64,000 nt of DNA from Tribonema minus (taxonomy: Eukaryota; Sar; Xanthophyceae; Tribonematales; Tribonemataceae). Of this stretch, positions 86 to 63,410 are shown piece after piece. A model generated the notes under the pieces. The model had not been told where the DNA came from. It made no database searches and was given only the letters and a program-made list of their open reading frames with translations. The first letter of the stretch is position 1. Each line of letters starts with the position of its first letter. The DNA lies in the NCBI GenBank assembly GCA_017506865.1, contig JAFCMP010000085.1:186001-250000 (forward strand). Direction: 5' to 3'. The position numbers and the translations under genes are program-made.

Positions 86-3000
86 CTGCACGGGCACGAT
101 GGTCATCGGCCGCATGCGCAGCGCCGGCGCCCAGCAGCCGTGCAGCACGAACGACAGGAACCCAATGACTGCGACGAGCATGAGCGGCTGCCCCAGCCCC
201 TGCGCGGACGTCTGCAGGTCCTCGCAGACCGCCCGCAGGTACACTGCCGCGTACATGTCGCCGACGAAGCCGCACATGGCGTACTGCAGCAGCGGCAACA
301 GCAGCAGCGGCAGCGGCAGCAGCAGCGGCAGCGGCAGCAGCAGCGGCAGCAGCACCAGCGGAAGCAGCAGCAGCGAGAGGAACATATAAGATGAGCTTTG
401 ACAAATGGGTTGCAGGCAACGCGCAAGTGCATATGACACGTCGTTGATGAAGCCGCGCATGGCGTACTGCACGACGGCGACAGCAGCAGCGGCAGCAGCA
501 GCAGCAGCAGCAGCAGCAATAAAATGTTGTTAAGCTTTGGAAAGTGAGTTGCATGTACACCGCCGCGTACATGTCGTCGACGAAGCCGCACATGGCGCAC
601 TGCAGCGTTGGCGCGGCGGCGGCAGCGGTGGCGGCAGCATCGGCAGCAGCGGCGGCGAGCACAGCAGCAGATGTGTCGAGTCCATGCGCAAGAGGCAGCG
701 ATGATCCGCGGGTGAGAGGGGGCGTGTCGTGCGCGGTGTGTTCATCAGAGCAAATGCACAATCGCGCTTGCTCAAAGCCGCGCGCGGTGCGCTATTCAAG
801 GCATGTTCGGTGCGATTCACACCCACTTTGGGAGTACGCGCGGCCGCAGCGGCTGGGCGAGCAGTATGTCAGCGCAGTTCTGCGCAGCACACATGGCAGC
901 CCCAGCCATTGCGCATAGCGCAAGGTGGAGTGCGCAGCCCAGATTAGGCTGCTGCAAATAGGTTGTGACCCCTCAGGCGAGTTTACTACTTTGAAGTACC
1001 TTTAAGGGTTACGGACAGCGCTAGAGTCAGGGTCAGGGTTAGGAATGCACAGGTCAGTCGGCCTCCCTGAGAGCCTTCATACTTCCTACAAGTCCGTGCC
1101 CTCACGGCGTAGGCAGCGCCTGCACATCGCGCGAGGCCTCTCGCGACGTCCTCAAGCACACGATGCATGCGTGCATACACACCTCGTTGGCGTGCGTTGT
1201 GACGTCGTTGATGCTCAGCACGTCCGCGGCGAGCTGCGCTAGCTCCGTGGAGTACGTGTCGGTGGCGTTGGTCATGTCCGCCGCCGCCGCGCCCGAGGTC
1301 GTCGCGGTGATGACGGCGTCTGCCTGCAAGGGTGTTGGAGTTATAGACTTGAAGTTAGATACTTGAAGTGCGCTAGTGCACCAACCGCGGCGAGCTGCGC
1401 CAGTTCCGCAGCGTATGTGTCGGTGGCGTTGGTCATGTCCGCCGCCGCCGCGCCCGAGGTCGTTGCGATGACAACGGCGTCTGCCTGCAGGGCGTCGAGA
1501 TTGATGGGACAAGGCATATTTGAAGTTTGAGCAAAGACTTGAAGTGAAGGACTTGAAGTGCGTTGGTCAGGTCCGCCGCCGCCGCGCCCGAGGTCGTGGC
1601 GGTGACGACGGCGTCCGCCTGCAGGGCGTCGAGAATTGGTGGGACGAGGGTATTGACGTTACAGATTTGAAGTTAAAGACTTGAAGTGACAGACTAAAAG
1701 TGCGCTGGTGCACCGAGCATGCACGCCCTTCAGAGTCACCGTCGGCGTCTGTCTGCAGGACGTCAAGAATGATGGGATGAGGGTATTGAAGTTAGAGACT
1801 TGAAGGTAAAGACCTGAAGTGCGCCGGTGGACCGAGCATACATGCCTTCCAGAGTCACCATCGGCGTCTGCCTACAGGGCGTCGAGGTTGGTGGGATTTG
1901 GGTATTGAAGTTAAAAACTTGAAGTGAAAGACTTGAAGTGCGCTGGTGCACCCAGCACGCACGCCTCTCAGACGTCTGCCTGCAGGGTCTCGACATTGCG
2001 GGCATGAGGTGCTTGCAGTAAAAGACTAGAGGTGTGCTGGTACATTGAGTATGCACGCCAACGCAAATTACCCGCAAGTTTCGGCCGCAGCCCCCCAAAG
2101 TCACCGCTGACACGCACCAGGAGTCCAACGCTATTGACAGTTCGCACAATGAAGATGAATGACAGTCCCCGCCTCCCCGTTGAGGACGCGCTGACAGCGG
2201 CAACGCCGGTCGTCTGCAAGGCGGCACCCTGTATACCTACTTGAAGTTACCCGTACGTTAAACATTTCCCCACAAATGCGGAGCAGCAGCATGCAGCTCT
2301 GCGGAGCGGCATTTGCGCGGGCTGCCGCTGCCTGCAGCATGCGCTGCACGTGCCGCCTGCGCGCGCTTCCGCTGGCGCGTCACCCGCGCGCACGCGCTTC
2401 CGCTACTTCAACGGCACGTCACCTGCACAACTTCAACAGCCGTGAGGCCAACACCAATTACTCATCGGCGAATCACCTGCACGTCTTCAACGGCCGCGAG
2501 GCCCGTTTCCATGATGCTCAGGCCGTACTGCACAGCGTCCAGTTTGGCGCGGAAGTTGTTGTTCAACAGGGCGCGAGCGTCAACAAACGCAGTGCGTTCC
2601 GCCAGCGCCGTCGTCGCATTGCACAGCAGGGCGCCCTGCACCAGGGGGCAAGGCGCAGGGCGTTCGCCATCATGAGCTGCGCGTGAGGTTGACGAACTGC
2701 ATTCTGAAGTGAAGGGCGAGGCATGCGTGAACCTCGACACTACCGCCTCTGTTGCAGCTGGTGTGCATCTGCGCGAGGCCGCCCGGCTTCTCCGAGGTTT
2801 TGCGCCGACGGCGTCCCGCTACAGTACTTTGCGCTTGTGAAGCAGGCGGCGCGCCGGTGCGGTCGCGCACGTCTCGGCGCCTGCGCAGCGCTGCCGCGGA
2901 TCGTCGATTCAGCGCGCGACGCTTGCGCGGCTCACTGCATCGCAATTCTAGTTGAAGTGCACACCCGGTGCCCCGCGCACTCACGTCGGTGACGGCGTCG

Positions 3001-6000
3001 TACAGCAGCGTCCCGGTCTCGTCCGAGATCTTGTCCTGGTCCGCGTCCACAAAGACGCCCCCTGTCGTGCAGAACTCGGCCAGGTCGACCACCGTGGCGT
3101 TCGCGAAGGTGAAGAAGCCGTTGTTGTAGACGTCGTACCTCGCGTCGTATGAAGCTGCCACGTCGAGGTTGGCGCGCACCGGCAGCATGAGGCTGTTGAA
3201 GTTGTCGAGCGCTGCTGCGTAGCTCGTGGTGATGGTGGAGTCGTCCCACCTGAAAGCTGGGTTCGGGCTGGGGGGGAGCAGGTGGGGGGGGGAGGTGGTG
3301 GGGGGGGGGGGGCGCAGGTTTCAGCTGCGCGCAAAGGCTGCAAAGGAAGTGCAGTGTGTGGCGGGCATCCTGGCTTTCAGCCTGTGCAGAGTGTTCATTT
3401 GCAATAGAAACCCCCGAAATCGAGCGCTGGTACCCGTTCCAGCGCTGGCGTGGCAGCTGGCGCGGCCCTACAGTGAGGTTAGTGTCAAGCACGCGTGCTT
3501 CTCCTGCGAGTGGTACGGGCTGTGCCAGGCGGCGTCTCCGCTGTGCTGCGTACGTACGCGTGCTGCGCAACCTTGAGCACTGACTGCGAGGTGGTCCCGC
3601 TTCTGCCCCAGCAATGCACGCATTCATCGCAGTTGCACGGTTCCAGCAGCGTCAGCGAGTGGGCTTCGTGGCGGCGCCTGTACCGGCCCGTGCAGCCGCA
3701 AAGTTGCTCAAAGGGCTACAACGTAACAACAGCCTGAACAACCATCCTCAGCGCCACCGCACCGGCAGCAACAGCGCGCTTGTACACATTTACACGTCAA
3801 CAGCAGCACAAAGCATGCGAGCGCCACATTAACGAAAACGCTCTGCCGTACGTTTCGGCAAGAGGCGGTGCCACGTGCGCTCGCGCTGCGGCACGGCGCT
3901 GCAGCGCGGCGCAGCGCTGTGCTGCAAGCCAGCGGCGGCGCGGCCAGCGTAGCAGCCCTGCGGCAGCGTCAGCGGCACTGCGGCAGCATCGGCGGCGCCG
4001 CAGCGGCGCCGCGGCGCGGCGGCGCAGCTCTGCTGCTCACACGCACCTGTCCGAATGTGCCGGATCGAGGTACTGGGCATCAAACAGCGCCTGCTGCGCG
4101 GGGTCGGTGCGGTTGAAGTTGGTGTCCGGCAGCGTCAGCCGCTTGGCGGTGACTTTGGCCAGCGCGGCGGCGGGGTCGTAGCCGTTGCGCGCGGCGGCCA
4201 TGTTAGGCAGCACGACGAGCGCGGCGGCGGCGGCGACGCTGGCGCTCGTCTGCAGCGCGCGCGGAGGGGGGGGGGGGGGGGGGGGGGGACAGCACCGCTC
4301 AGGCAAGGGGATGTCACCGTCCGCAGCTTTGTGGCGGGAGGTTCAGAGTGGACATGAGGTACCTCTTTCGACATGCACGGCCTCCCTTGATGGCTGCACG
4401 CTGGTGCCATTGGTGTTGCAAATATGAGGCCGGGCAGAGGCGGCACGTTCTGCGCACGGCAGCGACAAGTGCGCATACAAATTGCGTGAACCTAGTTTGC
4501 CGTTGACAGCGCTGCCACCGTCAGGCTAGCGGCAATTGAGCAGCAAGGCACCCTTGGGCTGCGGCGTGATGCGAAACAACGGCGACGGCGGCGCGCTCGG
4601 CGCGCAGCAGCAGCGGCAGAAACAGCATCAGCAGCAGCAGCGGCAGCGGCAGCGGCAGCAGCAGCAGCTGCTGCAGCAGCAGCACCAGCAGCAGCAGCTG
4701 CAGCAGCAGCAGCAGCTGCAGCAGCAGCAGCGGCAGCAGCAGCGGCGGCGCTCACCTGCGCCACCACCGCGCGCTCCGCGTCGATGGCCGGCGCGACGCT
4801 CAGCACGGCGTCCGCAACGTGTTGCAGCGGGCCGCGGATGTTGAACAGCGGTCCGAGCCCAAACAGGTCGACGAGGTTGTTGGTGGCAGTGGGCGCGTCG
4901 TTGGGCCGCCCATCGCACGTCAGGACGCCCACGATGGCGTCGCCCGCGACGATCGGCTTGGCGGAGGGCACCACCTGCAGCTTCTGCAGGGGCGGCGGCG
5001 GCGGCGGCGGCGGCGGAGGACCGCGGCGGCGGGGTGCGTCAGGAGGGCGCTGGTGATGCGGCGTGCGTACGCGCTCGCGGACAGGTGGAGGCGATGATGA
5101 TGCTGTGTATGTGCCTCTACTCTACGCAGCGCATGGCCTATCAGCACGCCTCGCGACAGCTCGCGCTGCGGTGCTGCGCCGCCACCGGTGCGGCAGAGCG
5201 AGCCGCAGCTCTACCACCGCGCGCTCACGGACGACAAGGGAGACTCAGCAAGAGGGTACAACTTGCAGTCCATGAGTTGCGCAAACGGCATGTATGTAAA
5301 CACACCTTGGGGAACTGCTCCACAATGATCTCCTTGTGCTGGTCGCAGAGGTCGCTATTCACGTGCTAGCCTACCAGCTAGTACCCTGTAGCACACGCAA
5401 ACCCTATTTCTAACCATAACCTTAATCCTAACACCTAACCCCAACCCTATCCCGAACCCTAACCCTGCCTCCCCCCAGATGCTCTTATCAAACCCTTTAC
5501 ACTCTTTACGCTCTTCAAGGCCTGATCCCCCGTACACACACCTTGGGGAACTGCTCCACGATGATCTCCTTGTGCTGGTCGCAGAGGTCGCTGTTCACGT
5601 ACGCGAGCGTCAGAAACAGCCCCCCCAGCAGGCAGTAGAACCCCTGCACCTTGTACACGAACGCCATGTTGAGGTACAGCGGGCGGGGGTTCTTGCACAT
5701 GGCGGTGCAGAACGCGAGCAGCACGAGGACGATGCCGGGGAGGAAGACGATGCCGCCGGCCGCGGCTGCTGCGGGCTTGATCCACTGGTTGAAGGCGTCG
5801 TCGACATCGACGGCAGCCCCCGTCTGCAAAGGCGGCATAGTACGCGCACGAAACAGAGAGGGGGGGGGGGCGGGGGGGGGGGGAAGGGAACAGGGGGGGG
5901 GAGAGAGAGAGAGAGAGGGAGAGGGAGAGATGCATTTGAGTCGGCAATTCAAGGGGGGGGGGGAGGTGTGTACTGCAGCGACGGTGCTACTAGGGTGGCA

Positions 6001-7478
6001 AACACCAATGCCCGTCTGCGATGCGATGCAGCGCGCACGCGACAGCACGTGTGTGAGAGAGAGAGAGCACAGACACGCGCATTCGAGTTGAAACATATAC
6101 TCGTACGGTCAATGTGGATCTATATGTGATTGGCACTGGTTGAAGGCGTCGTCTGTGTTGACGGCAAGACCCGTCTGCAATGCGGCGCACAGCGCGCGAG
6201 AAAGAGCGCGAGGGGGGGGGGGGGGGGGGGGGGGCATTTGAGTGAGCTTGCACAGCCACGTCAGAACCTGCAGTCAGAGAGGAACCTGCGCTCGGCCCGA
6301 GACCGCTTTGCACGCCCCCGAAACCCGCAGCAGCAGCAGCAGCGAGCTACTACTGTAACACTGCGCCCCCCCCCAACTTCCCCCTCGTGGCATAGCCTCC
6401 CTCTCGCGCACCCCCCATACTCTCTCCCTCGCGCACCTGGTACTTGTAGATGGTCCGCGTGAAGTTGCGAAGCTGCGTCAGGGTGGCGTCCAGGACGACC
6501 GTGACGCCCTCACGCAGGTCGGGCACGCCGTCGACCTCGTTGCCGTGCTCCGCGTCAATCTCCGACGCGACGAAGGTGGCACTGGCGCCGAGCGGCCCCT
6601 GCATGGCGTACAGGGTGGTGTTGGATGTCGCGGTGACGCCCGCCGTGCTCTGGGGTGGGGGGGGGGGAGGGACAGGGGGTGGGGGTGGGGGGGGCAAGGA
6701 GGGAGGGGCGGGGAGGGGTAGATGTGAGTCTGTGTACATGTGCGCCGAGCGGCCCCTGCATGCCGTACAGCGTAGCGTTCGATGTCGCGGGGACGGCCCT
6801 CGCTCTGCCACCGGGGGGGGGGGGGGGGGGCGGCAATGAGGGGGGGGGGGGGGGTACATGTGAGCATGCCGTACAGGGTGGTGTTTGATGTCATGGTGAT
6901 GCCTGCTGTGCCCCTGCCACGGGGGTGGGGGGAGGGAGGAGAAGGGAGGGGGGGGGGGGGGGGGGGCAAGCATGAGGCGGTCTACATGTGTGTGCTGATT
7001 GTTCGTCTCGCTGTGGGTGCGGAAAGTCCGGGGGATTGATGGGTTATATGCAGTGTTACGTTTGCTGGAAGGTGTCACCATCTCGTCCAGAATCAGACAC
7101 TGCTGAACTGCGCCGAGTAAAACCGCCATGTGGCGTCCTCAGTCACCTCCAACTTTGAAACGTGAACCTATTGTTTTATCAGTGCATGCGTGTCGTGGCG
7201 TGCAAGACAAAGGCATTTTGTAGCATGCAGTGAAATCAGCACGGCCGCCGTACTCTGTGCAGCCATACATACCTACTGCAGTCCAGCGCTCGCTCCCACC
7301 ACCGCTGCTGCGACGCGCTGTGCGGCGCTCGCCGTGACTTCATCTGTACAGCGCTCAGCTCGTCCACGTCAACGCTCAACACGATGGCACATCAACCCTC
7401 ATCATCATCCACAAGCGCAAGCGCACGCACGCCGTCCAAACCCTAGCGTGCCCTCTGCCGCAAAGCAAGGGCCACCGC

Positions 7479-7556
<78 letters not shown>

Positions 7557-10505
7557 GCGGCAGCAGCCGCAGCGGCGGCGGCAGCAGCAGCGCACTCACC
7601 GTAACCCCCGCCGCCGCCGCGTTCAGCTCGCCCACCGCGGCGACCGTGATCACCGGCAGCGTCAGCCCCAGGTCGTAGCGCCCAAACGTGCCCGTAGCGC
7701 TGTTGACGGCCGTTGAGTTGTCGGCGTGCACCTTGGCGGCCGCGAACGCCGCGATGGCGGGGGGGTAGCGCGGGTCGAGCGCCGCCCAGTCCGCCGCGAT
7801 CGCGTCGGACGGCGCCTCGATGACGGCGGGCGCGTCCGCGGCGATGCCGTACAGGAACGCCGCCGTGCCGTTGAGCACTGCGGTCGTCGCGCCGTACACG
7901 GCCTCGAGGAACGCGCCTGCGCACGTGCGTGCGGGGGGCGGGAGGGGGGGGGGGGGGGGAGAAAGGCGTGCGTGTTGTCCCGTGGCGAGCGATGACGCGG
8001 CGGCTGAGGTGCGCGAAAGAGATTGCGGGAGCGACGCTGAGAGTGGAATGCGCCCGCACGTGCACGCGCGGGAGAGAGAGGGAGAGCGCGCGCTAAGGGT
8101 TTTTGTTGTGAGGGACGACACGACGGCGGCGGCGGCGGCGGCGGCGGCGCATGCGAGGGGTTCTGGGCGCGGCGCTGAGAGTGAAATGTGCATGAGCGAG
8201 TCCAAAGCGCTGTCTACTGCTACTTAGTTTCCAGGCCTACACACGGCGTCCAGGAACGCGCCTGCGCACGCGCGCGCGCGCGCGGGAGAGAGAGGGAAAG
8301 CGTGCGTGTCGCGCAGAAGGTTCCCATGGTGAGCGATGCGTTGGTGGCGGCGGCGCACGCGGGTGGTTCTGAGAGCGCGGCTGAGAGTGCAATGTGAATG
8401 AACGGGCCCACGGCGCTTCCAAATGCTATGCGCGGCGGTCATGCAGGCGCCGGCGCTAGCGACAGCGCCGTCGGGGGAAGAGTAGGGCAGGGATGCCATC
8501 GCTGCACTGCTACTTCAAACATGAAGTTTACGGCGCTGAGGCCGCCGCCCGCACGCAACGTGGAGAGGTTCCGTTGTTGGACGACAAGGCCGCATGGCAA
8601 ATGATCTGGGTGTGATTACGAGCGTGAAACGTGGCTGAACGACTGCCGTGTGCTGTCATGGTGGGCACGCAAATGCACGTTGCCGCCGCGCCCGGTGAAC
8701 CCGTCGCCTAAACTTCCGTTGGTAATGGCCAACTCCTGAGCCCCTGATTTTGGCCTTGGACGCCGTCGCGCTTCCCTGCTCCAGCACGTCACCCGCAGTC
8801 AATCATATGCATACATATGCCGACCTCAATGCTGCGCGCAATACTGAGCGGGAGCAGCCCAAGAGAAAGAAAATGTTGCTCGTATTCCACAGCAGTGTTT
8901 TCAAAGGTCAGTAGAGAGCACCAGCGCTCACTAGCTGTATGACATGTATACACAGCCCTCGAGAATGGCCGTCACGATACAGGTAGGCTTCTCCTGGTTA
9001 TTTCAGTGAATAACATTGTTCATTGTTTGAATGTTTCAATTTTTTTCTGGTCTGGCGCAGTTCTGTTGATCCTTCCAAAGAACACCACTGTGTGCTGTTT
9101 CTGGCCCCGGTGCGACGCCGCCGCTGGCGCCTGTGGGCAGCCTGCGCTCCCTCTGCACTGCGTGTGCGCAGCTTTGCTGCTACTTAGAGCGCGCTTTCGC
9201 AGCACAACTGCCATGCGCACAAGTGACTGCTACTGTAGCTGAAGGCGGTGCGCCTCCAATGTGGTGTGCAAACAGAAAAGAGGTTATGAATGCGCTGTGT
9301 GCCTGCTGCGCATGGGAAGGCGCGCATGCCAGCTGATGATTACACTCACTTCAACGGAGTGACGTGACGGCAACCTTGAGTATCTGTGTGTGTGCGCGGG
9401 GGGGAGCACGAAACCGGCTTTGACTGAGGAGTACAAATTCAGCACTAATGTGCTCGTGTGTCATGCTGCAGGGGGGATGATACTTCAAGAGACACATTTC
9501 GCAGAATGAAAAAATGAAAAGATGTTCATATATATAATACGAGGCATGTACTCCACGGCGTCCAGAGTGCAACGCAATCAGCCCCAAACTGTATGCGCAA
9601 AGCATCAGCCAAGTCTCCACAGAGTGCCACTATACTGCTCAGCAGTGGCGCTGCATCCTGGCGTGCTATGATAGCCTCGACTGAAGCACAACTACTTGGT
9701 GTTCAGCAGCTAACTTGTGCGGTGCCACCGGTCCGCAACTCTCCTTGTCACCAAAGTAGAGCGCTACGATCTTTTGATTCGTTCTCACTCACCTAGGGAC
9801 TTGTCCTCGCACTCCCGTGCGCCGTCCTGCGCGCACACCGCCTTCTGCAGGTCCAGCGCAAACTTGTCGGCGCCGTCGTAGGCGTTGCCGAAGGCGACGT
9901 CAGTGCTCAACGCCTTCTCGTACGCCACGCCCGCGCACGCCGCGTACCCCACCACCAGCATCACCGTGCCCACCCACAGCAGCTTGCGCTGCTTGGTGAC
10001 CCTGTAGGCGATCGCCGCCTGGTCGTGGAACCCCTTGCCCTCCCCGATCTCCCTGTCTATGCGCCGCAGGCTTCTACATCTGCAGCAGAAGACTATCGCC
10101 AGGATGGACATCAGCAGGCCCAGCACGAACATCAGAGCGATGCCGAACCCCGCCGTGTGCTCCGATACTGTTGCGCCGTAGGCCTTCCATTGCTCCTGTG
10201 GCGCAGGGGAGCAGCAGTGGCAGGGCGAGCAAGGATGCCAGCTTTTGTAATGTCAGGAGATCCAGTGTTCTTTCATAGTCTCGTCTGTACCGGCCATTGT
10301 TGCTTGGCGTTCTTGACACACTGTGTCAAGCAGGAGCCTGCCTGATTGAATCGTGCGCCAACGCCAACTTTTGTTGGCAACTTCAAAGTCGTCTTTCATG
10401 AACGCGCGACGATTACGTACTCACCATCTGTGTCGAGTTCTCGAAGTCCCATTTGCCATGTGGGATGCCAGCGGCGTCGCTCAAAGAGCGATGCATCGAC
10501 ATCGT
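86..10505 (-). CDS. Five-transmembrane prominin/tweety-like glycoprotein (partial, 11 exons)
   Basis: Exons, 5' to 3' on the minus strand: 10505-10425, 10195-9793, 7916-7600, 6649-6437, 5823-5542, 4983-4756, 4249-4047, 3249-2985, 2635-2477, 1323-1183, 283-86. All phases agree, giving over 830 codons with no internal stop. Visible layout: a short N-terminal stretch with an NST sequon; TM1 (GIALMFVLGLLMSILAIVF) followed by the cysteine cluster CCRCR; TM2 (WVGTVMLVVGYAACAGVAY); a loop of about 300 residues with NGT, NST, NTT and NFT sequons; TM3 (IVFLPGIVLVLLAFCTAMC); TM4 in YCLLGGLFLTLAYV; a second loop of about 350 residues with NRT and several NAT sequons; and TM5 (LMLVAVIGFLSFVLHGCW). Five membrane spans, two large outer loops and cysteines after TM1 match prominin topology; tweety-type channels are similar. 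Family assignment rests on topology, not on sequence identity. The first exon was not found, and the 3' end lies beyond the window after a donor at position 85. Confidence 0.75.
296..516. repeat. CAG-rich arrays next to the last prominin-like exon in the window
   Basis: CAG-rich runs at 296-378 and 481-516. On the transcript strand these read CTG/CTGCCG and abut the acceptor of exon 283-86, so they occupy the pyrimidine-tract position. Confidence 0.85.
1386..2225 (-). repeat. Ladder of exon-start copies in the prominin-like intron
   Basis: The true exon starts at 1323. Upstream in the transcript lie copies of its acceptor and start: about 1386-1490 (nearly the whole exon), 1566-1630, 1735-1762, 1852-1882, 1970-1990 and 2190-2222. 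Successive copies are shorter and more diverged. Each keeps the CTGCAG acceptor context, and several are followed by ACTTGAAGT-type motifs. The two nearest copies still contain the GCGGCGGCGGACATGACC stretch. Confidence 0.8.
3270..3313. repeat. Poly-G tract, transcript-strand poly-C before an acceptor
   Basis: A G-run on the plus strand just upstream, in transcript terms, of the acceptor at 3250. Comparable tracts lie at 4265-4289, 5860-5903, 6211-6234, 6650-6700, 6811-6853, 6935-6967, 15240-15362, 15528-15544, 27800-27843, 29055-29070, 35341-35376 and 57890-57977, mostly 3' of minus-strand exons on the plus strand. Confidence 0.8.
4600..4750. repeat. Long CAG/CTG microsatellite at a 5' splice site
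   Basis: About 140 bases of interrupted CAG on the plus strand, read as CTG in the transcript. It begins within the donor region GTGAGCGCCGCCGCTGCTGC of the exon ending at 4756. Confidence 0.9.
5399..5466. repeat. Interstitial telomere-type repeat (CCCTAA)
   Basis: A degenerate AACCCTA run within the intron after exon 5823-5542. It follows a copy of that exon's end (about 5301-5360). Confidence 0.85.
7483..7596. repeat. CAG/CTG microsatellite at a 5' splice site
   Basis: An interrupted CAG array starting only a few bases inside the intron after the exon ending at 7600 (donor GTGAGTGCGCTGCTGCTGCC on the transcript strand). Confidence 0.9.
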
Positions 10506-10834
10506 CTGAACGCCAAAGGCTGCGCTTCCGTGCTGACACCAACAGTAGCGCTTTTGCCCAGCACTTGGCGCTAGTAGTTCTTTCCGCCAACGCCCATGCA
10601 CCAACGACGCCGCGTGCTTCAAGAGCGATACATGTCTGCGACGAAAACAAAACGAAGAAAACGGTTACATTTTTTAAACGCTCTAAAGGAGAGTCTTCTT
10701 CCTTCCTAATTTTGATGCGGTGATGATCAACTACATGCAGCTGAGGAAGATGATCATAGATAGGGAGGAGAGCAAACACTGAGCAGCGAAAGCCGCAGCG
10801 TGATCACGGCGATTTTCTTCCGGACAGCGCTATC
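10506..10834. promoter_or_regulatory. Divergent intergenic/5' region between the prominin-like gene and HSCB
   Basis: About 330 bases separate the first recognised minus-strand exon (ends 10505) from the HSCB start codon (10835). The stretch is less GC-rich than the flanking exons. It must hold the missing first exon or 5' UTR of the minus-strand gene. A pyrimidine-rich run ending in CAG lies near 10637. The bases after it resemble the true exon start at 10505, so it appears to be a decoy copy of that acceptor. I see no TATA box I would trust. Confidence 0.35.
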
Positions 10835-24742: not shown

Positions 24743-24882
24743 GACTGCGCTCGCGGTGCAAGCCAAAGCTGTGAGGCACAAACTTCATCAACACAAAAAG
24801 AACTTCTCAAGTCCAAACTTCAAACGTTGAAATTCATTCAGTTGGTTACGGTTGTTCTTACTGATGTTCTGGTTTGTCCCAG

Positions 24883-49741: not shown

Positions 49742-51644
49742 GTTTGTTTGCGCAGAGGGGGGTATGGAGGTGGGGTTGAGGGCGGTATTGGGGGGGGGAG
49801 GGGGGGAGGGGGGGGGGGGGGGGGGGGGGGGGGAGGGGGGGGAATGGGGCCTTTGTTACTATGCGCGGCTGTACAGAGTACGTGTTGGGGATATGCCCGA
49901 GGTGATGATGAGCAGTCGTCGGGCTTCAGCATTTCGCAAGGTCTGCAAAAAAAACTACTGGAAATGGCAGCACTAATTGACGCGGCTCCTTCCAGCTGTG
50001 CGCAGCATGATGGCACAAGCGCACGCAAGTAGGGTACAGCCGAGGAGAATGCTCTTTCAAGACGTAGTTCCAGTGAGGAGCCCAAAAGAGAGGGGAAGGG
50101 GGGGGGGAGCACCCGGGTTTGAAAGATTGAGAGTATCGAGGGTTTGACACAAGGTCCTGTGTTGCGCACATGGAACAGTGCTCTAAGAGGGAGTGCCAAG
50201 GTGGCACCGCCGGTGTGTGCCATGCACGCCCCCTCTTCGTCTGTGCAGTTTCCTGGTGGAAGTCGCAATTGCAGGGGGTATGACTGATTGTTGTGTTACG
50301 AAAACGTTGCTTGCACAGTTTGTGACACTGCTCCCCTACAGAAATACACACGTGTGCTCGGAGAGGCTTCATCCCGAGCTGCACCATGGAGGCAGCCTGA
50401 TCAAACAACGAAGTCTTTGTTGCCGTCCTTGGATATGCTTGTCAGACTTTTTGCTGTTGTCATTTACGCTGCTTTGCAATTGCGTTGTGCGCACCACATG
50501 GTTTGGAAGTAGCCGCGTGGTCATTCGTTCATTATAATACTACTTGTGCATTGTGCATACATGCGTGCTTGTCTTGCATGCTCTCATTCTGCTGAAAAAC
50601 GTGTGCGGCTTCGATGTAGTTGTTGGCTTGCATTGTGTGCGCCGAGGCAGGGGTCAAGTGAAGACAACATCTGTCGCTCTCATCTTGTGATGATAACTTC
50701 AAGTTGAAGACTCGACGTGACATATAGTGCAGGGGCGGGCTGGACGGCGTATGTGTCTCTCATTTTGTGACTTCAAGTGCAAGACTTCAAGTGCAAGTTG
50801 AAGATATGATGTGACACGCAGGGCGAGGCTTCGACTCGCAAGGCTTGTCGTGCGTATACTACAACTTCAACACTTCACAAGTGCAGTTGTTGCGCAGCAC
50901 AGCTCAGCAGACATATGCGCAACAAGCAGGCAGCAGCAAGAGGAGGGGAGGCGACACGAAACGTGCATTGCAGGGGGGGGCGACGCGGTGCTGCTGTGCC
51001 GCACAAACTCACGAGCTTTCTTAACATGAATGTGCCGTCCGGCGCTGCTGCCACAAGAGGCGCGCACGCGTGGAATCGGGGCGCCCTCAGTGGTCGGCAC
51101 TCCATGCATGCGGAATGAGCCATGAAGTGGCGTTTGGCGTTGTCAAAATTGTTTTTGCTGGTCAGTTGTTTTGAGGCTCCCTGGACAAAAATTGGTCGTC
51201 TGATGCATGCGTGCACGGCTCCCGCTGGCAGTTTCTGGGCAAAAATGTGTGCGCGCGGCAGCACACGAAACTGGCTGTGCGGATGCCGCCACAAAACCCC
51301 CCTTCCCCCGCCCCCCCCCCAAATCCCCCTTTCACACATACACACGCACACACACTGGCGCTCAAAAGTCCCCCCCCCTTGGTGTTATGAAGTGATGATG
51401 GCTACACAGCTGCCCCCCATCCCCCCTCCCCCCCCTGAGCACTGACACGCGCAGGTGCACTTGAGCTGCGCCTCACAGCGCACGCTGCGCGCAAAAAGCA
51501 GCCGCAGCGCCGCCCAGCGCGATGCTTGCGTCAATGCGGCCCAAATCACGTGCCTCGGCGCAACATCAGCACTCCTCATCTGCGTCGAATCGTGCACGCG
51601 CAAGCCGTAGCTGCGGCTGAGCGGCACCTCTGGCGCTGCGCGCC
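49742..51644. other. Convergent intergenic region between the MHYT and C2 genes
   Basis: Contains the probable 3' UTRs of both genes. A long poly-G stretch (about 49791-49841) lies just after the MHYT stop, and C-rich runs occur at 51300-51440. Open frames on both strands (for example minus 50408-49926) show no recognisable domain or splice support. The motif ACTTCAAGTTGAAG occurs at 50697 and similar motifs near 50775-50800 and 50862. Nothing else recognised. Confidence 0.4.
49791..49841. repeat. Long poly-G tract after the MHYT stop codon
   Basis: About 50 bases of almost pure G immediately downstream of the MHYT coding sequence. This is the only large G-run on a transcript's own sense strand in the window. 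Confidence 0.85.
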
Positions 51645-54600
51645 TTAAGCAGAGGCGGTTGCAGGCTTGGCACCTGCGGCGAGGATGGCACAGGGGCGTG
51701 TATTGAGCCGTGTTGCAAATGCGCCGTCGCGCGGCGTTGGCGTCAAGCGCGGGTGTATAGGTACAGGCATAGTCATCGAGCTTTGTGTCCCTTCATGATG
51801 AGACAAGACGTCGACCCCTCCCCTGCAGCGCGCGTGACAAGGTATTGGTCACCGCCAGCACCGACAATGCTCCTCACCGAATCAACGGCGGAGCCCACGG
51901 CGGCGCCAGCGGCGCGCGGGTCGATGGTATATACTTCAAGTATACTTTGGACAGGGGCAGTTGGGTTATTTTTACCATGACTGCTGACAGGGGCAGTTCG
52001 TTTGTTTTATCATGATTGCTTAAGCAGCACAACGCATGCGCCGAGCGCTGGGCCATCACGTGCACTCGTCCGAACCGCACTCCAGTATCAAGCACTTTGC
52101 GGCCAGTGCTTCTCGGCACAAATAATTTTGTGCTGAGCACCTCGACATCTTGTACACTCTACCAGACCGCACCCGCACACGTGAACCTGGGAACTGCAGC
52201 TGCACTCACCCCCAGCGCCAACAGTGCTCCTCACGGTGTCGACGGCGGCGCCCACAACGGCGCCGGCGGCGCACATGACGAATGGGGTCGATTATACATG
52301 GAGGTACGTACCTCCATGTATTTGTAAAGGGGGCGGTCGGTTGTTCCGTCATGATTGCTTTCACAGCACAAACAAAAACTTGTGCTGAGCACCTCCGCAT
52401 CTTGTACACTCGACCAGACTGCGGCCGCCAACGTACAGCTGTGTACTTCAACTGCACTCACCGCCAGCGCCGACGGTGCTCCTCACGGTGTCGACGGCGG
52501 AGCCCACCGCGGCGCCGGCGGCGCGTGCGAATGGGGCTGCTCATAATGTATACTGCAAGTATACCACACATATTTTACACCCAATGACCTCCAACATACA
52601 GCTGCGTACTTCAACTGCACTCACCAACAGTGCTCCTCACGGTGTCCACGGCGGAGCCCGCCGCGGCGCCGGCGGCGCGCTTCACAGTGTCGGCGGCGTG
52701 CGCCGCGGCGCCGGTGGCGTCGCTCGCCGCGTGCAGCACCGCGTCGGCCGCGGAGTGCGCCGTGCCATGCACCTAATCGCGTTCGGCAGCAATCGGCAGG
52801 CGGTCGTTAGCTTGTCACAGTGCAGTCCCTCCTGGCTTGACATCGTGCAAAGTATGGCTGTGCAATCATGGTTGGAGTACCAGACAGAGGCAGCAACGCT
52901 GCGGCACTAGTGGCGTCGCTCGCCGCGTGCAGCACCGCGTCGGCCGCAGAGTGCGCCGTGCCGTGCACCTTATCGCGTTCGGCAGCAATCAACATTGAAA
53001 ACATCTGTGATGAGGCATTGGCTCGGGTCGCCAGCTTGACGTCAATTGATTGTGCTCCCTCATGCTTTAAGCGACAGCGAACGAGAAGTACACAGCGCGG
53101 AGTGCGGCTGCAGCAGCGCTCGTGTGCGCACCTTGTCGACGATGCCCCCGATGAAGCCCTGCACGCTCGCCACCGTGCCATGAACCGCGTCACCCACGGC
53201 GCGCCCGTCGCACAGTGCGCTGTGGTACACAGTGCGTTGGACTTCACAGTACACTGGAGTACACTGGAGTACACAGTGCACAGTGCGGAGTGCGGCTGCA
53301 GCAGCGCTCGTGCGCGCACCTTGTCGACGATGCCTCCAATGAAGCCCTGCACGCTTGCCACCGCGCCGTGCACCGCGTCACCCACGGCGCCGCGCGTCGC
53401 GCCGGCGGTGGTCATGATGGTCTCCACCGGCCTGATGTCCTGCGCACGAGGCGGCGGTGCGAGGAAAATTGAGGACTTCAGCAATGTTAACTGCTGGCAT
53501 CGCAGGAGATAGCGGCGCAGCGCAGCGGCACACAGACGCCGGTACAGGGAAACAGCGTGTGTGCCTGAGACGGTCGTGCGCATGGAACGCTCGCAGCGCT
53601 GTGCGTTGTGTCCACGGCGGAGGTGAGGGCCACCTTGCGCAGCCTGCACAGCGCCAGCGGGGCAGCTCACAGCTTGACGTGTCCTGGGTGCGATCCGTAC
53701 GATTCCAACCCCGTTGACTTCTTCGGCCTTGTCGACAGACGTCGCGCGCGCTGGAGCGATCCCGCAGAGGACAGCGCATTCAATTCAGCGCGCACCTCAG
53801 TACATGCATTACTTCCAAATATTTCATTCTTGTCGTTGACATGCTGCCAGGATTAGTGCCCCTCTTCCGACAGCTTGAGCAAAGGGCGCACACGTTTCCG
53901 CCTTGAGCGCGTCGTTAGCATGGCACACGGTGCTCTGAGCATCACCCACCTTCCTGCCTTCCTGCTCACTGCCCCGAGCGCAGCGCGATGGCCGCGACAG
54001 CCGCACAGTTGTCATCACAGTGCTCAGCGCCGCGCCCTTCTTTAGCACAGGGCCAGCGCACCTCGAGTGTACCATCGGCGTTGTCTTAGGGTTAGGGTTA
54101 AGGTTAGGGTTAGCAGAGCGCTGCGCAGGCGAAGCACGCCTCAAGCACGAGCTTGATGTTGCGCGGCGCGCTGAGAGCCGCACCCTGCGTCCTTCCCATG
54201 ACTCCGATCACAGCTCTGGCGCGCACTGTACGTGCCGTGCGGAGAGCACACAGTCGAGACGCACCTTGATCACGTTCTTGGCGTTGCACAGCGAGGTCGG
54301 CGTCTCATCCTTCTTGTCCACGAGCTCAGCACGCCTCGGATCAAGGGCGTGTAAGACTCAGATCAAGAACACCCCTAATGACACACAACTCAACAACACA
54401 TAGTTGGCGTTGCCTGGGACGCCGAGCGCCTCTCCTACTGCCTGTCCCAGGCCTCGACGACACCACGGCCTGCGCGTTGCAGGTTAAAGCCTAACCCTAC
54501 CCCTAACCCTAGAGCCCTCACAACCACAGCGCGAGCGCACCGTGATCACATCCTTGGCGTTGCACATCGTCCTCAACGCCCTGACCTTCGTCCTGCCCAC

Positions 54601-57600
54601 GACGGTTCAAGCGCGCGCCAACCGCACTGCGCGGAGAGCACACAGTCAAAAGCGCACCTTAATGACGTTCTTTGCGTTGCATATGCTGCTCAGCGCCTCG
54701 TCCTTCTTCCTGTCCACGAGCTCGTCGACGTCGTTGAGCGCCCCCTCGATCTGCCTGTCAATGCTGTCGACGACGCGCGTGCCGTGGCCTTCCGCGCCCT
54801 CTTCGGGTGCGCCGTGCTGAAACACAGAGAAAAGGGTTAGGGTTCGGGTCAGGGTTATTGATTATTGATGCACATAGGGTTAGGGTCAGGATTTAGTGGC
54901 CTTCCGCGCCCTCCTCCGATGCGCCGTGCTGCGGTGGGAGCAGGAAACACAGAAAAAAGGGTTAAAGTGAGGGTTATTAACCATTGACGCACATAGGGTT
55001 AGGGCAAGGGGCAGTGACCTTCCGGGCCCTCCTCCGGTGCGCCGTGCTGCGGCACCAGCAGGAGCAGAAAACATGGAAAAACAGGTTAGGGTTAGGATCT
55101 AGGGTTTGTGATCGTTGACACACATCAGGCGCCCTCGATGCCCCTCCTGCGCGCATCTTGGTGCCGCGATGCTGTGGACGACGCGTGTGCAGCCATGACG
55201 CTCGGCGCCTCTGCTCGACGTGCGCGTCTCACAACTTCAACTTTCTCACTCGTGCAATCCTCAAAACTTCACTTTCATCATGGCACGTGTACCGTTCCTC
55301 AGACGCGCCGTGCTGCGGCGGCCGCTATGGCGGGGGTCAAGAAGAGAAAACGCATCATGAGGCAAACTGGGGCAGTGCAGAGGCGGCGTCGCTGTGGTGC
55401 TGCAGCCGCCGTCGTCAGCGGCGCGACGGATGGTAACAGGTCGTGATTCAAACGATGAACTACTTAACGGTCCCAATGTCGACTGCGGCAGCGGAAGGGA
55501 TGGCAAGCGGCATGATAGAAGCACAAGAGATGAACTATCGGCGCAGCCCGCAGCGGGCGCCCGCGTTACGGGGAAGAGAGAGGGTGAAGCATCACATGAA
55601 TTGAAGCGTGATTCATCAAGGCAAACCAAAGAGCGGGGGGCTGGCTGGGGCACTGCAGCGACTGTCGGCACGCACGCTCTAACTCAGCGCGTACTTGCAG
55701 CAGCGCTCAGATTATGCAGCGGCCACCGCCAGATTCCATGTGCTGCTTCTCCCACGCTGGTGATCTACCGACGCCTGCTCACGCGCAGACGACTAGTCCA
55801 CGCCTCAAATATCAGCGTTAAGTGTGCTAGTGCCGGACATTGTGACCCCCATCGCGTTTCGCGACCGCAAAAGCGAAGTGCATGGCATGGCGCGCCTGCG
55901 GAGGACACTCTACAGTAGTGTCTTTTCGGCCGCGGGCCGCCGCCGCCGTCTGCTGTACAGCGCGCGTACCGGCGGCGAGCGGGACGTCGTGCCTTTAACT
56001 TCAAGTCAGGAGATCTCACAACTTCAAAGTCAGCAGCAAACCCCCCATTTGAGGGATGGCAACGTCGCTGCCCACAGCAATGCGACGCCTGATCAGCTGC
56101 AACAGAGGAGCGTCATTGGCGACGTCCACTGGCAGCAGCGCTCAAATCAAGCTTGAGTGGTGTCCTCTGCAGGATGAAGTGGCGGTTCTGGCGTCTTCAA
56201 CTTTGACTACACTTCAACTCCAGGATGCCAGCACCACCGTCCACACAAATGCCACGTCTGATCAACTACAACTGAGGAGCGCACCCGACGTCTACTGGCA
56301 GCAGCGCTCACCTTTGCCTTGAGCGGCGTCCTCTGCAAGATGAAGACGGTTCTGGCGTCTTCAAGAGTTCAACTAGAGCCAGGAGCTCACTCCCAACGCT
56401 GGGACGCCAACACCACCGTCCACACAAATGCGACGTCTGATCAACTTCAACTGAGGAGCGTCACCGACGTCTACTGGCAGCAGCGCTCACCTCAGGCTTC
56501 AGCGGCGTCCTCTGCAGAATGCTCTCCAGCACGCCCTCCCAGATGGGCGAGACCATCTTGACGAGCGGCAGGTGCGCGACGGTGCCGTATACCTACCAGC
56601 GGGGGCAGAATCCAATCACTTTAGTATGCGAACACTGCAGAGTGCCTGATGGGATTGCTCGCTTTCCTGCACTTTACAAGCACATGAACGCTGGAAATTT
56701 GCAGTGAAACGATGGGAAGGATGATGACAAACGCCTTCACGCAGGGAGTGTAAGACAAGTGACAGAACAAGAACAAAGAACCTCTGGTGGCTCGAGTGAA
56801 AGGCGAAAAATCATTGGCCCCCTGCATGTTGGTTATCATGCGACGCACGAGAAAACGGTCTCTGAAAGCATGATGTGCTCTATCGTGTGGTCCATCTTGG
56901 CCATGCAGCGCGCCTCCGCAGGGCGTAGCGCGCGCATCAAACTGCGGCGCAAGCCGCGCACGCGCGTTTCTACGCCAGCGCAGCGCGCACACTCGCCGCG
57001 CCCCCGCGCGTTGAGTACAACACAATGAATGCAGTGAACGGTGAACCTCGGTAACGCCCTGCACCCTGTCGCAACGGACAGCACCATGAATCACAACACA
57101 ATCAATGCAGTAAACAGTGAAACAGTTAACGTCAGGCAAGCCACCATCGTGACGGTTCACACCATTGTCGCGGCGGCGTAGTACGACTCCACGCGCAGCA
57201 CCGACACAGCGACGAAGCACCTCCATGTGCAAAACGCATCGTATATACTGGCACGCGGGCAGGCCATCGCGATAGAAACTGGTCCGTGCCCTGAATGGTC
57301 ACGCCCGGCAACCTGCCGTGACTTCTTAGTAGTTCTTGCCATTTTCGCGGCGGCGTAGTACGACTCCACGCGCAGCACCGACGGCCGCCGCCCCGTTCCC
57401 ACGCCAGCGCAGCGCAAACTCGCTGCAGCCCGTGCGATGAGTACCACACGCTGAATGCAGTAAAAAGCAATCACTTGACGCACGGCACCCAGCCGTGACG
57501 GTTCTTACCATCTTCGCGGCGGCGTAGTACGACTCCACGCGCAGCACCGACGGCCGCGGCCCCGCCAGTTTCGCGGCACCCCAGTCGATCAGGTCGCCCG

Positions 57601-60600
57601 CGCCGGCGCCGAACTCCGGCGGCGGCAGGTGCGCCGCTGCCGCCGCTGCCGCCGTCGTCGTCGCCGCAGCAGCGCTCTTCGCGACGGCAGCGGGCTGCGC
57701 GACGAGCGGCGGCGCTGTCGGCGCCTCGGCCCACGCGCAGTCAAAGTAGAGGGTGCCCACGGAGGCGAGGGGGTCGGCGGCGGCGGCGCCGGGGGGGAGG
57801 AGCGCGTGGGGGGCGCCCAGGGGGACGGCGCCGTCCCAAATCTTGCCGAAGGGGATGGTGACCTGGGGGGCAGCGGCGGGGGATGGGGGTGTGGGGGGGG
57901 GGGGGAGGGGAATGGCGTGGAGCATCGGATCAGAGGGGAGCAGCTGCGACTAGGGGGGGGGGGGGGGGGGGGGGGGGCCTCGTGGCGCTGGTGGCAGCTG
58001 CAGGCATCTCTGATGTGACAGAGCGGCGAAGGCACAGCGGCAGACACATTGGTTGTGGAAAATGTGTGATCTTAGGCCTGGTGCCCACGCCCTTCCCCCC
58101 CTTGCGGTTGGGAGGAGCGCCAGCTCTAGAGCCCACCGTGGGCAACGCAGAGCACTGGGCGCACAGCGGCTCCGGTCAGTGACTGGATCCACAGCGTTTG
58201 CGAAAAGGTGAGCAACTGCCTCAATGCCACTCACTGGTAGTGTCGAGTACCAGCACCCGCTTCAGATTAGGGTTAGGGTTAGCCCTATCCCTAACTTCAA
58301 CCCTACAACCCTGCCCCACATGATGTTTGTGAACCAAAGGCAGCCTTCAGAGCAGCACGCACTAGCACGCGCCGCAGCGGCCAGCGGGCGACACACACGT
58401 GCAAACGATGTGAGCTGGATACCCCCAGCCACGACGATGTGCTACTCTGCAGGAACAATGAACTCAGATTGTAGATTTCGAACTTGAAGATAGTCACAAC
58501 ATAAAACAATATACTGAAACTAAAATTTCATTAATAAGGAAAAAAATTCCACAGTGTTGAATACGGCTCACCACTCCGATGACCTCAGTGGCGCCGCCGG
58601 CCTCGCTCACGACCTCCTACACGATCTCGCCGCTCTCCTACGCATCAACACCAAAAATGCCTCTGCACAAATCAAGTTCAAGTGTGACTCACCACGCCGA
58701 CGACCTCCAAGACGCCGCCGGCGTTGCTCACGACCTCATGGCCTTGCTCACGACCTCATACACCATCTCTTTGCTCTCCTCCGCATTAACACTCCGCATT
58801 AACACCAATGTCTCCGCACACATTAAGTTAAAGTACGACTCACCACGCCGCCGACCTCCGCGGCGCCGCCGGCCTTGCTCATGACCTCCCACACTATGTC
58901 GCCGTTCTGCTCTGCATCAACAGTGCGTCTCTGCACAACATTAAGTTGAAGTTGAAGTACAAAACTCACCACCCCGACGACCTCCGCGGCGCCGCCGGCC
59001 TTGCTCACGACCTTGTACACAATCTCGTGGCCCTCCTCCACATCAACGCCGGTGAGTCTCTGCGCACATCAAGTTGAAGTACAACTCACCACTCCACTGA
59101 CCTCTGCGGCGCCGCCGTCGGTGTGGCGGCGCCGTCGAGTGTCTTTGAAAACCAAGTTGGAAGTGTGACTCACCATCCCGACGACCTCCTCGGCGCCGCC
59201 GGCCTTGCTCACGACCTCGTACACGATCTTATCGCTCTCCTCCGCGTCGACGTCGAAGGCAAAGCTCGCGTGCCAGCGCGGCGCCGTCGTCGCCGCAATA
59301 GTCGCCGTGCAGTGCGCCTCGCCCTTGACCGTCACGCGCACGAACGTGCTCGGCGCTTCCTCGTGGGTCTCCAGCGCGGGGCCCCCTGCGCGCGCATGAA
59401 TGCGTGGTTGGAGTTAATTCTTGAAGTATGTTATTGAAGTGCATACCTCGAAAATGCGTATTTCCTCAAGATACTGACGTGCGCGGCGCGCTCAGCTCGT
59501 GTGCTGTACTACATCAGTTGTGACGAACCGCACGAGGTGCGTATAGCGTGCGCGGACGAAATTCATTCCGCAACACTCAGCGCATGCCGGCGGATTGAAG
59601 CAGGTGACAGCCACGTCGGCCGCTGTGCCATGGGCTTCCTTTGGCTGCGACGATCTGGCAACAAGCCCGCCGCCAATGTTTCCAGTTTGTCTGAAGTCAT
59701 CGACGCGCGTCTGATGCAGCACCCGCACAGTTGTCGCGGCAGACTGCTAGCGCCGCCGCGCCGCACACAGCGTTGCCACCCAGAGATGCTGCCGGAATCG
59801 TCTGCTGTCGGCGCAGCAAAAACAAAAGTGCCAGTCGACTTCAAAGCTTGTGACCCCAGCCACGCGTCAGTTACCTTGCGTGCCATGCCTTGCGGTGGCA
59901 TCATGCAACCTCAAGGCTGTGCACGCTGCGTGCGCAAACGCACTCCGTTGCGCCTTCCCTGCCTCCTCCGCTTTACACAGCCTTGCGACATGCGCTGCCA
60001 AATGCCTAATCGTGAATTAATTCAGGGTCGCCGAACTGGTCCACGCGCTGTCAAATTCATACTCATTAGTTACTCTGAAAGTGGACACTGCATCTGATTC
60101 TTGGTGCACTCACCCTGGTGGGTCGTCATGACGGTGTGCTTCCCCTTGCTCCCCTTGTTCTTGTGCTTCCCCCCCTTGGCGGAGCGCTTCGGCGACTTGG
60201 GGCCCAATGTCAGCGACTTAGGGGCTAGCGCCGCTGCGCACGCGGCACAGCAAGCACACGCAGCAAGGAACTCCGATAATGTTTTTCTTTCCGCCAGGCC
60301 TCATGAAGATTGCGCAGCCATAGAAGGGGCAACGAGGACGCTCAGCGCTCAGCGCTGGGTCAAGCGGCAGCTGTCCGCTTGCGGTGCACCTCTTGCTGCG
60401 ACGCACACTGCGCCACTGGCTGGTGACGGGAGCTAGTGCCGCTGCAGAGCACTGTCATCGCAGGAGGCTGAACCTTCGCTGCGCTGCTTTCAAGCATCAG
60501 GGTTCATCCAGACCCGCTTAAAATGCCAGCATAGATGATGGGGCGTTTGAGGTGCAGCAAGCTCAACAATCAGCGTAGAATCTGGTGTGCTTCAACAACC

Positions 60601-60954
60601 ATGTTCTTTGTGCTGGAGTTCTGAAGGAATCCAAGCAGTACCCGCCAGCTCTGAGCAAGATCCTGCAACAATGGCTGAGTGGCTGATGACACCAAGTGGT
60701 GGCTTTGGATCCTATAACCAGCTATCGAGCCTCTTTCATCCTTCAGAAGAGTCTTCATGAGGTCTGCTGCCTCACTCTCTGAGCGACCAGTGACCCTTTG
60801 GCATGAACATGATCCGTGCCTGACAACTCACCATTCACGTCGATGACTTTGGTCATCAGAAGTCCCTCCGCTCTCTGCACATCCGTCTGCAGCTGGCCAC
60901 GCATATTGAGCGCTCCTTTGTGATTGTCCTCTGCGGCTTGTGGATGATGCTGAC
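51645..60954 (-). CDS. C2-domain protein with lysine-rich loop and alanine-rich tail (5' end uncertain)
   Basis: Exons: about 60954-60832, 60233-60114, 59385-59174, 57862-57509, 56592-56491, 54816-54658, 53439-53320, 52772-52625, 51673-51645 (stop TAA). Phases agree and give at least 454 residues. The C2 fold is spread over the first four exons: GLLMTKVIDVNA (strand 1), a Lys/Gly-rich insert with KGGKHKNKGSKGKH, STFVRVTVKGEAHC, then PRWHASFAFDVDAEESDKIV and GMVTIPFGKIW. C2 domains bind membranes, often with calcium; here most of the acidic loop residues are not obvious, so binding through the basic loop is possible (inference). Next come an Ala/Pro-rich linker, a short segment VAHLPLVKMVSPIWEGVLES and a charged helix. 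The tail is rich in Ala, Val, Asp and His, resembling LEA-type amphipathic helices. A symmetric 93-base candidate exon (56941-56849) could be inserted without shifting frame. The start codon is unresolved. A 62-codon open stretch (60758-60570) in intron 1 is unexplained. Confidence 0.72.
51868..52555 (-). repeat. Exon-end copies upstream of the final C2-gene exon
   Basis: Copies of the end of exon 52772-52625 (GGCTCCGCCGTGGACACCGT...), at about 51868-51925, 52215-52270 and 52465-52530. Each has a GGTGAG-like donor and a conserved run of intron sequence including the ACTTCAA/TTGAAGT motif. Confidence 0.8.
54240..55320 (-). repeat. Exon-end and exon-start copies around C2-gene exon 54816-54658
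   Basis: Exon-end copies lie at about 54262-54335 and 54538-54600. Exon-start copies lie at about 54893-54940, 55014-55065, 55130-55165 and 55285-55330. The start copies carry telomeric TTAGGG runs in each unit (54836, 54877, 54983, 55086). Confidence 0.8.
57130..57440 (-). repeat. Exon-end copies (VESYYAAAKM junction)
   Basis: Two copies of the end of exon 57862-57509, at about 57165-57212 and 57335-57395, each with a donor-like GT or GC after the ATG codon. The downstream intron segment is repeated with them. Confidence 0.8.
58565..59105 (-). repeat. Array of C2 exon-end copies (VSKAGGAEEVVGM junction)
   Basis: At least five copies of the end of exon 59385-59174 with the GTGAGT donor, at about 58568-58645, 58687-58770, 58840-58915, 58965-59050 and 59085-59115. 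Each retains GGCGGCGC and most of the coding end. Spacers contain AAGTTGAAGT-type motifs. Confidence 0.9.
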
Positions 60955-63340: not shown

Positions 63341-63410
63341 CTGCAGTGTTGATGACACAGGCGGTGCACAACCATCGATGTGCAAGAGGCTTGTTGGTGT
63401 GCTGCTGTTG

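Follow-up and report, generated by a model that had tools for sequence, protein, structure and literature searches.

The window analysed here is a stretch of 64,000 nucleotides from the yellow-green alga Tribonema minus (contig JAFCMP010000085.1, positions 186,001 to 250,000), a genome of 158.18 Mb in 554 contigs. Five multi-exon genes were modelled in it: a prominin-like gene, a sulfotransferase-family gene, a gene with EF-hand and leucine-rich-repeat (LRR) homologs, an MHYT-domain gene and a further gene at 51447-60216. A single-exon gene for an HscB-like co-chaperone lies among these intron-rich neighbours. Many long introns of T. minus hold rows of worn copies of the adjoining exon's edge, here called arrays, and such arrays are present in all five multi-exon genes of the window (Table 1).

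The gene models were obtained with a custom codon-usage gene finder that exploits the preference for G/C (about 0.90) at third codon positions. These models are approximate, and 11 of their exons were taken for array copies or for calls on the wrong strand. These 11 were removed as queries from the curated copy list and from the locality control described below; the intron-length comparison and the exon-overlap counts still use the unpruned models. A Pfam search with six minus-strand reading frames within 2673-8223, in the prominin-like gene, matched no family.

Reality and locality of the exon-edge copies

When the window was compared with itself (at least 55 bits, within 2 kb), local repeats formed 97 pairs in direct orientation and none in inverted orientation. 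Over six regions the count was 237 local direct pairs versus 2 inverted. When whole exons were compared with their surroundings, copies of exon ends were found downstream of the exon and copies of exon starts upstream. In five regions this comparison yielded 69 END and 29 START matches against 40 direct INT matches, 34 of which come from C10 and C60, regions where the long exons contain internal repeats. The remaining matches were 17 WHOLE, from very short or mis-called exons, one misplaced END and one inverted.

A locality control was employed in which 187 exon edges were compared at 45 bits with 96 introns from four regions, C10 and C60 among them but not C30 or C200. Direct matches in the edge's own intron numbered 68 and came from 32 of the 187 edges. 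Only nine of the 77 matches lay elsewhere, eight in other introns of the same gene and one in another gene, and no inverted match was found in this sample. The density was about 365 own-intron matches per million query-intron bp versus 0.26 elsewhere, an excess of roughly a thousandfold per base. An earlier note, made from the letters of this DNA, had described arrays in four large genes and the prominin-like gene, with exon ends copied downstream and exon starts upstream, and with copies that match the local exon and not other introns. All of this was borne out by the comparisons, including the self-alignment that it had proposed.

An origin as mobile, introner-like elements or as an artefact of assembly was considered, since arrays recur in many genes. 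Introner elements are repeated sequences associated with introns in algae, and the likeness to the present repeats lies there. However, the arrays match their own exon, only one match lies in another gene, and no family common to separate loci was seen among the 96 sampled introns; the matches to unrelated loci that a mobile element would leave are thus all but lacking in this sample. In their matched exonic parts, copies from the window have 74-100% identity to the exon, mostly unlike assembly duplicates, although an assembly artefact is possible for a 298 bp block at 39817-40412 (98%) and a 62 bp repeat at 18626-18749 (100%). Overall, a mobile or artefactual origin is most improbable. The 62 bp repeat is a perfect intronic tandem repeat that involves no modelled exon and appears to be a recent duplication, as does a 91 bp tandem repeat, 98.9% identical, at 63410-63591 outside the gene models.

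At an E-value threshold of 1e-4, 30 of 93 edges in the window, 13 of 44 in C120 and 3 of 30 in C60 had copies in the neighbouring intron. None of the 40 edges tested in C10, where genes have large exons and short introns, had such copies. Two arrays were found in C30. Exon-edge copying thus extends beyond the window yet is uneven.

Anatomy of the arrays

Curation, with C10 and C60 left out, gave 39 arrays holding 87 copies; 25 of these arrays are in the window. The distance from junction to junction has a median of 162 bp (quartiles 130 and 204), and 78 of the 87 distances lie between 100 and 240 bp. Near the donor, the copied exon part has a mean identity per position of roughly 0.8-0.95. Copies share breakpoints in several arrays, as expected if later copies derive from earlier ones, and have their own breakpoints in others. 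Tandem Repeats Finder also reported several tandem repeats, with periods of 102-298.

The arrays span 9,522 of the 38,568 bp of modelled intron in the window. Introns with arrays have a median length of 1126 bp (n = 27) versus 520 bp for those without (n = 79). When the array span was subtracted, the median of the former was 626 bp, so that the excess is about the array span.

In about half of the adjacent pairs the homology reaches beyond the exonic part, 39 of 80 having homologous intron parts at z > 4. With a permissive extension, 17 of 24 young adjacent pairs showed homology over 80% or more of their spacing.

The similarity of copies to their exon was also described as decaying with distance. 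A weak trend of this kind does exist (Spearman -0.25, p 0.02); the nearest copy, however, is the best match in only 15 of 25 arrays, and in one MHYT paralog the trend is reversed, the most distant copies being the most similar.

Donor-side arrays outnumber acceptor-side arrays, 25 to 14, with 64 versus 23 copies, whereas the split in a neutral simulation (see below) was about even (27:33, 27:20 and 13:15). It is suggestive only, but the donor excess might reflect harm from acceptor copies placed upstream.

Table 1. Modelled genes and exon-edge copies, with positions in the window
Feature	Position	Strand	Remarks
Prominin-like gene	86..10167	-	gene finder; named in the earlier note; arrays at several edges
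HscB-like co-chaperone gene, single exon	11159-11728		Pfam HSCB_C above cut-off, DnaJ just below
Sulfotransferase-family gene	15366..23039	-	PF00685 in public model; six arrays in curated set
EF-hand plus leucine-rich-repeat gene	26958..43559	-	homologs with EF-hand domains, some with LRR domains
MHYT-domain gene	45098..49741	+	PF03707 in public model
Gene	51447..60216	-	gene finder; eight arrays noted, four of these read by eye
Three direct copies, prominin-like gene	235-352, 436-518, 551-670	-
Acceptor-side array, exon starting 1323	1224..1976	-	copies at 1484 and 1618, followed by repeats in greater decay
Donor-side copy (97%), exon ending 5542	5296..5364	-	intron homology only about 10 bp
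Acceptor-side copies, exon starting 6647	6742..6910	-
Donor-side array, 5 copies, exon ending 18094	17415..18034	-
Donor-side array, 3 copies, exon ending 19101	18534..18997	-
Acceptor-side copy, exon starting 19920	20028..20090	-
Donor-side array, 3 copies, exon ending 21357	20871..21186	-
Acceptor-side copies, exon starting 21498	21811..22240	-
Donor-side copy, exon ending 22846	22637..22692	-	intron part clearly homologous
Donor-side copy, exon ending 31898	31680..31757	-
Acceptor-side array, 2 copies, exon starting 33495	33605..33832	-
Donor-side array, exon ending 36612	35971..36544	-	4 copies counted; weaker extra ones by eye
Donor-side copy, exon ending 37531	37387..37417	-
Acceptor-side copy, exon starting 38632	38821..38862	-
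Donor-side array, 4 copies, exon ending 40306	39601..40204	-	includes the 298 bp block duplicated at 98%
Donor-side array, 5 copies, exon ending 42466	41512..42353	-
Acceptor-side copy, exon starting 42635	42732..42791	-
Acceptor-side array, 3 copies, exon starting 45970	45538..45875	+
Donor-side array, 2 copies, exon ending 46251	46293..46530	+	both are exons in the public model
Donor-side copies, exon ending 47973	48109..48268	+
Donor-side copies, exon ending 48735	48840..49015	+
Acceptor-side copy, exon starting 49373	49232..49287	+
Donor-side copies, exon with donor near 52626	51861..52525	-	by eye
Acceptor-side copy, exon start near 52772	52897..52990	-	by eye; same exon as donor near 52626
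Donor-side copy, exon ending near 53320	53087..53211	-	by eye; cluster 53087-53400, counted outside genes, is a donor-side array on inspection
Donor-side copy, exon modelled as ending 54646	54253..54327	-
Acceptor-side copy, exon starting 54816	54896..54928	-
Copies beside exon 56491-56592	56072..56337	-
Donor-side array, 2 copies, exon ending 57509	57163..57395	-
Donor-side array, 4 copies, exon ending 59174	58572..59051	-

Coding potential and splice sites of the copies

If the copies were real small exons, the T. minus proteins would contain short internal repeats, and this is how they appear in public models. Two window genes are represented by public T. minus proteins, JKP88DRAFT_288001 and JKP88DRAFT_287999, which match their exons at or near 100% identity. 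The first, from the MHYT-domain gene, includes four array copies as exons. In the second, from the sulfotransferase gene, five extra blocks are inserted; tblastn matches four of them to array copies, and the fifth lies at a decayed exon-start copy near 19527, as judged by eye. The same type of false internal repeat may sit in other public T. minus proteome models.

Homologs of three window genes were aligned: seven of 59 matches for the MHYT family (P0001 and six others), four of 29 for the sulfotransferase and nine of 30 for the EF-hand gene. The repeated segments of the public MHYT model were found in none of the six aligned homologs, nor did any aligned homolog of the other genes show the inserted repeats; P0062, a transcript-assembly protein 54% identical to the sulfotransferase, lacks all five inserted blocks. 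The nine EF-hand homologs had no insertion at five tested exon joins, which carry six arrays. Seven positions were printed in this last test; 40306 and 38632 belong to one join, 42635 is at the model start and uninformative, and the homology around 36612 is weak. On these alignments the homologs appear to join the outermost sites, the copies not being predicted exons in the relatives, and we infer that T. minus itself would splice at the outermost sites.

The reading frame of the copies gave evidence on both sides. Mismatches between copy and exon are in excess at third codon positions (0.178 versus 0.075 and 0.086), as are differences between copies (0.251 versus 0.162 and 0.160). A frame break or stop was present, over the stretch looked at, in only 2 of 31 copies at least 90% identical to the exon versus 16 of 47 others. 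However, synonymous change in the real exon since the duplication would likewise produce the third-position excess, and 20 of 24 gap runs in the copies are not multiples of three and thus shift the frame. Coding constraint on the copies was therefore not adopted, since the gap runs shift the frame and the homologs lack the segments. The spacings within arrays are spread over the three classes modulo 3 (30/31/26). Splicing from a copy's donor in place of the genuine one would run into a stop codon in 55 of 59 cases. Furthermore, no acceptor consensus was seen by eye at the start of donor-side copies, which together with the frame-shifting gaps distinguishes the arrays from tandem alternative exons, yet 29 of the 31 young copies are open over the stretch looked at. 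On balance, it is unlikely that the copies are genuine exons of T. minus.

A regulatory role was also considered, in which the copies would be functional decoys, half-exons whose sites compete with the real ones and so adjust splicing or the retention of introns. The decoy exons known from intron retention are splice-site-bearing, exon-like sequences inside introns, and the copies resemble them in this respect. Among the copies scored, 50 of 58 retain the donor GT and 15 of 20 the acceptor AG; this count left out 6 donor-side and 3 acceptor-side copies for which the reference itself lacks GT or AG. However, the identity of the flanking exonic sequence alone predicts 46.0 and 16.0, respectively. 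Because the splice dinucleotides survive about as often as exonic identity predicts, a decoy function is unsupported. The recurrence of arrays at one junction in three paralogs and the over-representation of junction arrays relative to simulation, both described below, would fit such a role, but the former could be chance where many edges carry arrays. The sequences have so far given no positive sign that the copies function: use, conservation and regulation, by which decoy exons would differ from them, left no trace in this comparison, and a decoy role is judged to be quite unlikely. The earlier note is thus upheld in placing the copies within introns, as the homologs of three genes lack them, and in that most, though not all, keep their splice site; its proposals that they serve as decoys and that the duplicated sites compete in splicing are not, retention being near chance.

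Arrays in paralogous genes

Two MHYT paralogs on another contig (L021 and L022) also have arrays, and the same junction is arrayed in three paralogs. At this junction, junction 1, the paralogous exons are only 58-69% identical to each other, and the copies match their own exon at 0.71-0.98 versus 0.60-0.69 for the exons of the other paralogs. The exons at junction 2 are too alike for such a test and the paralog references at junction 3 are nine bases late; because these two junctions are unsuitable, the argument is drawn from junction 1. The comparison shows that the paralogs carry arrays of independent origin at a shared junction. Additional matches suggest further MHYT-like genes, three on C151 (29186-56390) and one on C45 (366465-372932).

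Origin of the arrays

The arrays are probably the remains of serial small tandem duplications, with a unit of mostly 100-240 bp, across exon-intron junctions. A duplication across the donor would not alter the original exon and its donor, which stay upstream, but would put an extra exon tail and donor into the intron; a duplication across the acceptor would place an extra exon head upstream, again within the intron. Such events may be tolerated, as the outermost sites remain available for splicing to join. The intron-side copy would then drift and decay, some arrays would grow by further duplication or by unequal exchange among copies, and the intron would ratchet longer. Staggered-break fill-in repair, slippage or unequal exchange are examples of what the molecular step may have been, presumably with neutral drift of the copies afterwards. 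PMC4974935 describes tandem duplication inside genes, and PMC8355091 documents that small tandem duplications can originate in break repair.

Support for junction-spanning duplication comes from the local, direct and side-specific copies, the intron homology in about half of the adjacent pairs, the joins of the homologs and the independent arrays of the paralogs. In 16 copy-copy pairs with intron homology, the mismatch was 0.136 in exonic and 0.212 in intronic sequence, values of a similar order. That introns lengthen by tandem duplication across junctions, as first suggested from the letters alone, remains the best explanation, and the greater length of array-bearing introns is in keeping with it.

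Several results weigh against this interpretation. In 5 of the 24 young adjacent pairs the homology covers less than 60% of the spacing; the copy at 5306, for example, matches over 59 bp of exon and about 10 bp of intron at a spacing of 236 bp. In a stricter test, only 11 of 34 young copies had intron homology to the real junction versus 33.8 expected, although the older copies fit (24 of 52 versus 27.6). Simulated intron homology was present in 34 of 37, 20 of 23 and 21 of 24 young pairs versus 19 of 31 counted. Over all copy-copy pairs the mismatch is 0.191 in exonic versus 0.475 in intronic columns, and in the 16 pairs with intron homology gap openings are 0.008 per exonic versus 0.078 per intronic site. 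The gap difference may be due partly to detection bias or copy selection and to slippage-prone, low-complexity introns. Arrays also hold more copies (87 in 39) than the approximately 1.1-1.2 per array that were simulated.

The short homology of some young copies, and the 23 of 34 without significant intron homology in the stricter test, would be accounted for if break repair, and not tandem duplication, had placed short junction patches in the intron as templated insertions. However, homology as long as the unit covers most young adjacent pairs in the permissive extension. Templated insertions often occur in both orientations, and no inverted match was found in the copies' own introns. Patch insertion is therefore very unlikely as the general source of the arrays. 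Copying of the exon alone, suggested by a drop in identity just past donor +6 and by the stricter test, was demoted to a rival because, in the permissive extension and the unit alignments, about half of the pairs or more have homologous intron parts.

Composition of the intron ends was also evaluated. In the donor halves of introns of the sampled genes GGGGGGG occurs at 3.27 versus 0.44 per kb and TTGAAGT at 1.68 versus 0.35, and in the acceptor halves C-runs occur at 9.2 versus 0.79 per kb. Pairing of the intron ends was rejected, as the donor G-runs or TTGAAGT and the acceptor C-runs do not co-occur (Fisher p = 1.0 and 0.78). The modelled introns are also rich in telomere-like hexamers, CCCTAA/TTAGGG, at 0.74 and 0.67 per kb, whereas 40 kb of modelled exons contain none. 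Tracts of them lie, for example, at 5400-5470, 16900-17270 and 42100-42154, some between array copies.

The number of arrays expected at junctions was estimated by a neutral simulation with uniform duplication sites and drift, in sequence free of low-complexity tracts. With random placement of the unit, 30% (window) or 19% (C120) of the tolerated duplications would span a junction. The simulation predicts 1.7-2.3 detectable intron-only clusters per junction array, and an earlier one at a lower rate gave intron-only to junction ratios of 11 to 6 and 7 to 1. The window instead has 5 intron-only to 29 junction clusters, which again counts against the simple form of the proposal; elsewhere the numbers were 13 to 15 (C120), 2 to 5 (C60), 5 to 2 (C30) and 0 to 2 (C10).

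Exon-edge copies are easier to detect because the real exon is held still. Since the intron parts alone reveal only 9 of the 39 arrays, many intron-only duplications must go unseen. When corrected for detection, about 9-14 intron-only arrays (25 x 0.702/0.298 x 4/25 or 9/39) would be expected in the window versus the 5 seen. Detection bias as the sole cause was thus set aside: it explains much of the junction excess, perhaps not all. The excess over the neutral simulation is suggestive but not proven, because the simulated sequence is free of low-complexity tracts and the C120 and C30 models may miss exons. One proposal that would account for it is that tandem duplication in this genome tends to start at transcribed exon-intron junctions, or to be preserved when it crosses them; we regard this as rather unlikely. 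If true, splicing would leave its pattern in the DNA, for example through RNA-DNA hybrids or spliceosome-linked nicking, and would drive intron growth from the exon edges inward.

Relation to known systems and significance

The earlier note knew of no named class that fits these introns. This was too strong, as tandem internal gene duplication is described in PMC4974935, which also cites Rogers' model and the survey of Gao and Lynch (2009) and holds a potato RdRp case. The arrays share with it local, direct, intragenic copies that include intron-exon structures with splice signals. They differ in that no new intron or exon is apparent; instead there is a longer existing intron, with apparently unused exon edges and multi-copy arrays. 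A new functional intron or exon is not indicated in the three genes compared, since the homologs share the exon joins and lack the copies. Minisatellite-like arrays are similar in their head-to-tail units and often shared breakpoints, but here one end of the array is a constrained exon edge and the units include a splice junction. No description of junction arrays of such density in introns was found in the titles and abstract openings of a part of the open-licence literature. The process is judged to belong with tandem internal gene duplication.

The copies can mislead annotation: if they prove unused in RNA, the two public T. minus models would hold false internal repeats. Intron length varies widely, and growth is rarely caught in progress. 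Brown algae are relatives of Tribonema within the stramenopiles. In Ectocarpus, introns have a median of 524 bp on autosomes and about 46% of the genome is intronic (PMC12477816). Duplication-driven intron growth could be tested across the brown algae because introns are unusually long there. A copied exon edge would serve as a datable marker, because selection holds the real exon still while the copy drifts, and the arrays of T. minus may in this way preserve evidence of duplications that are otherwise difficult to recognise within an intron.

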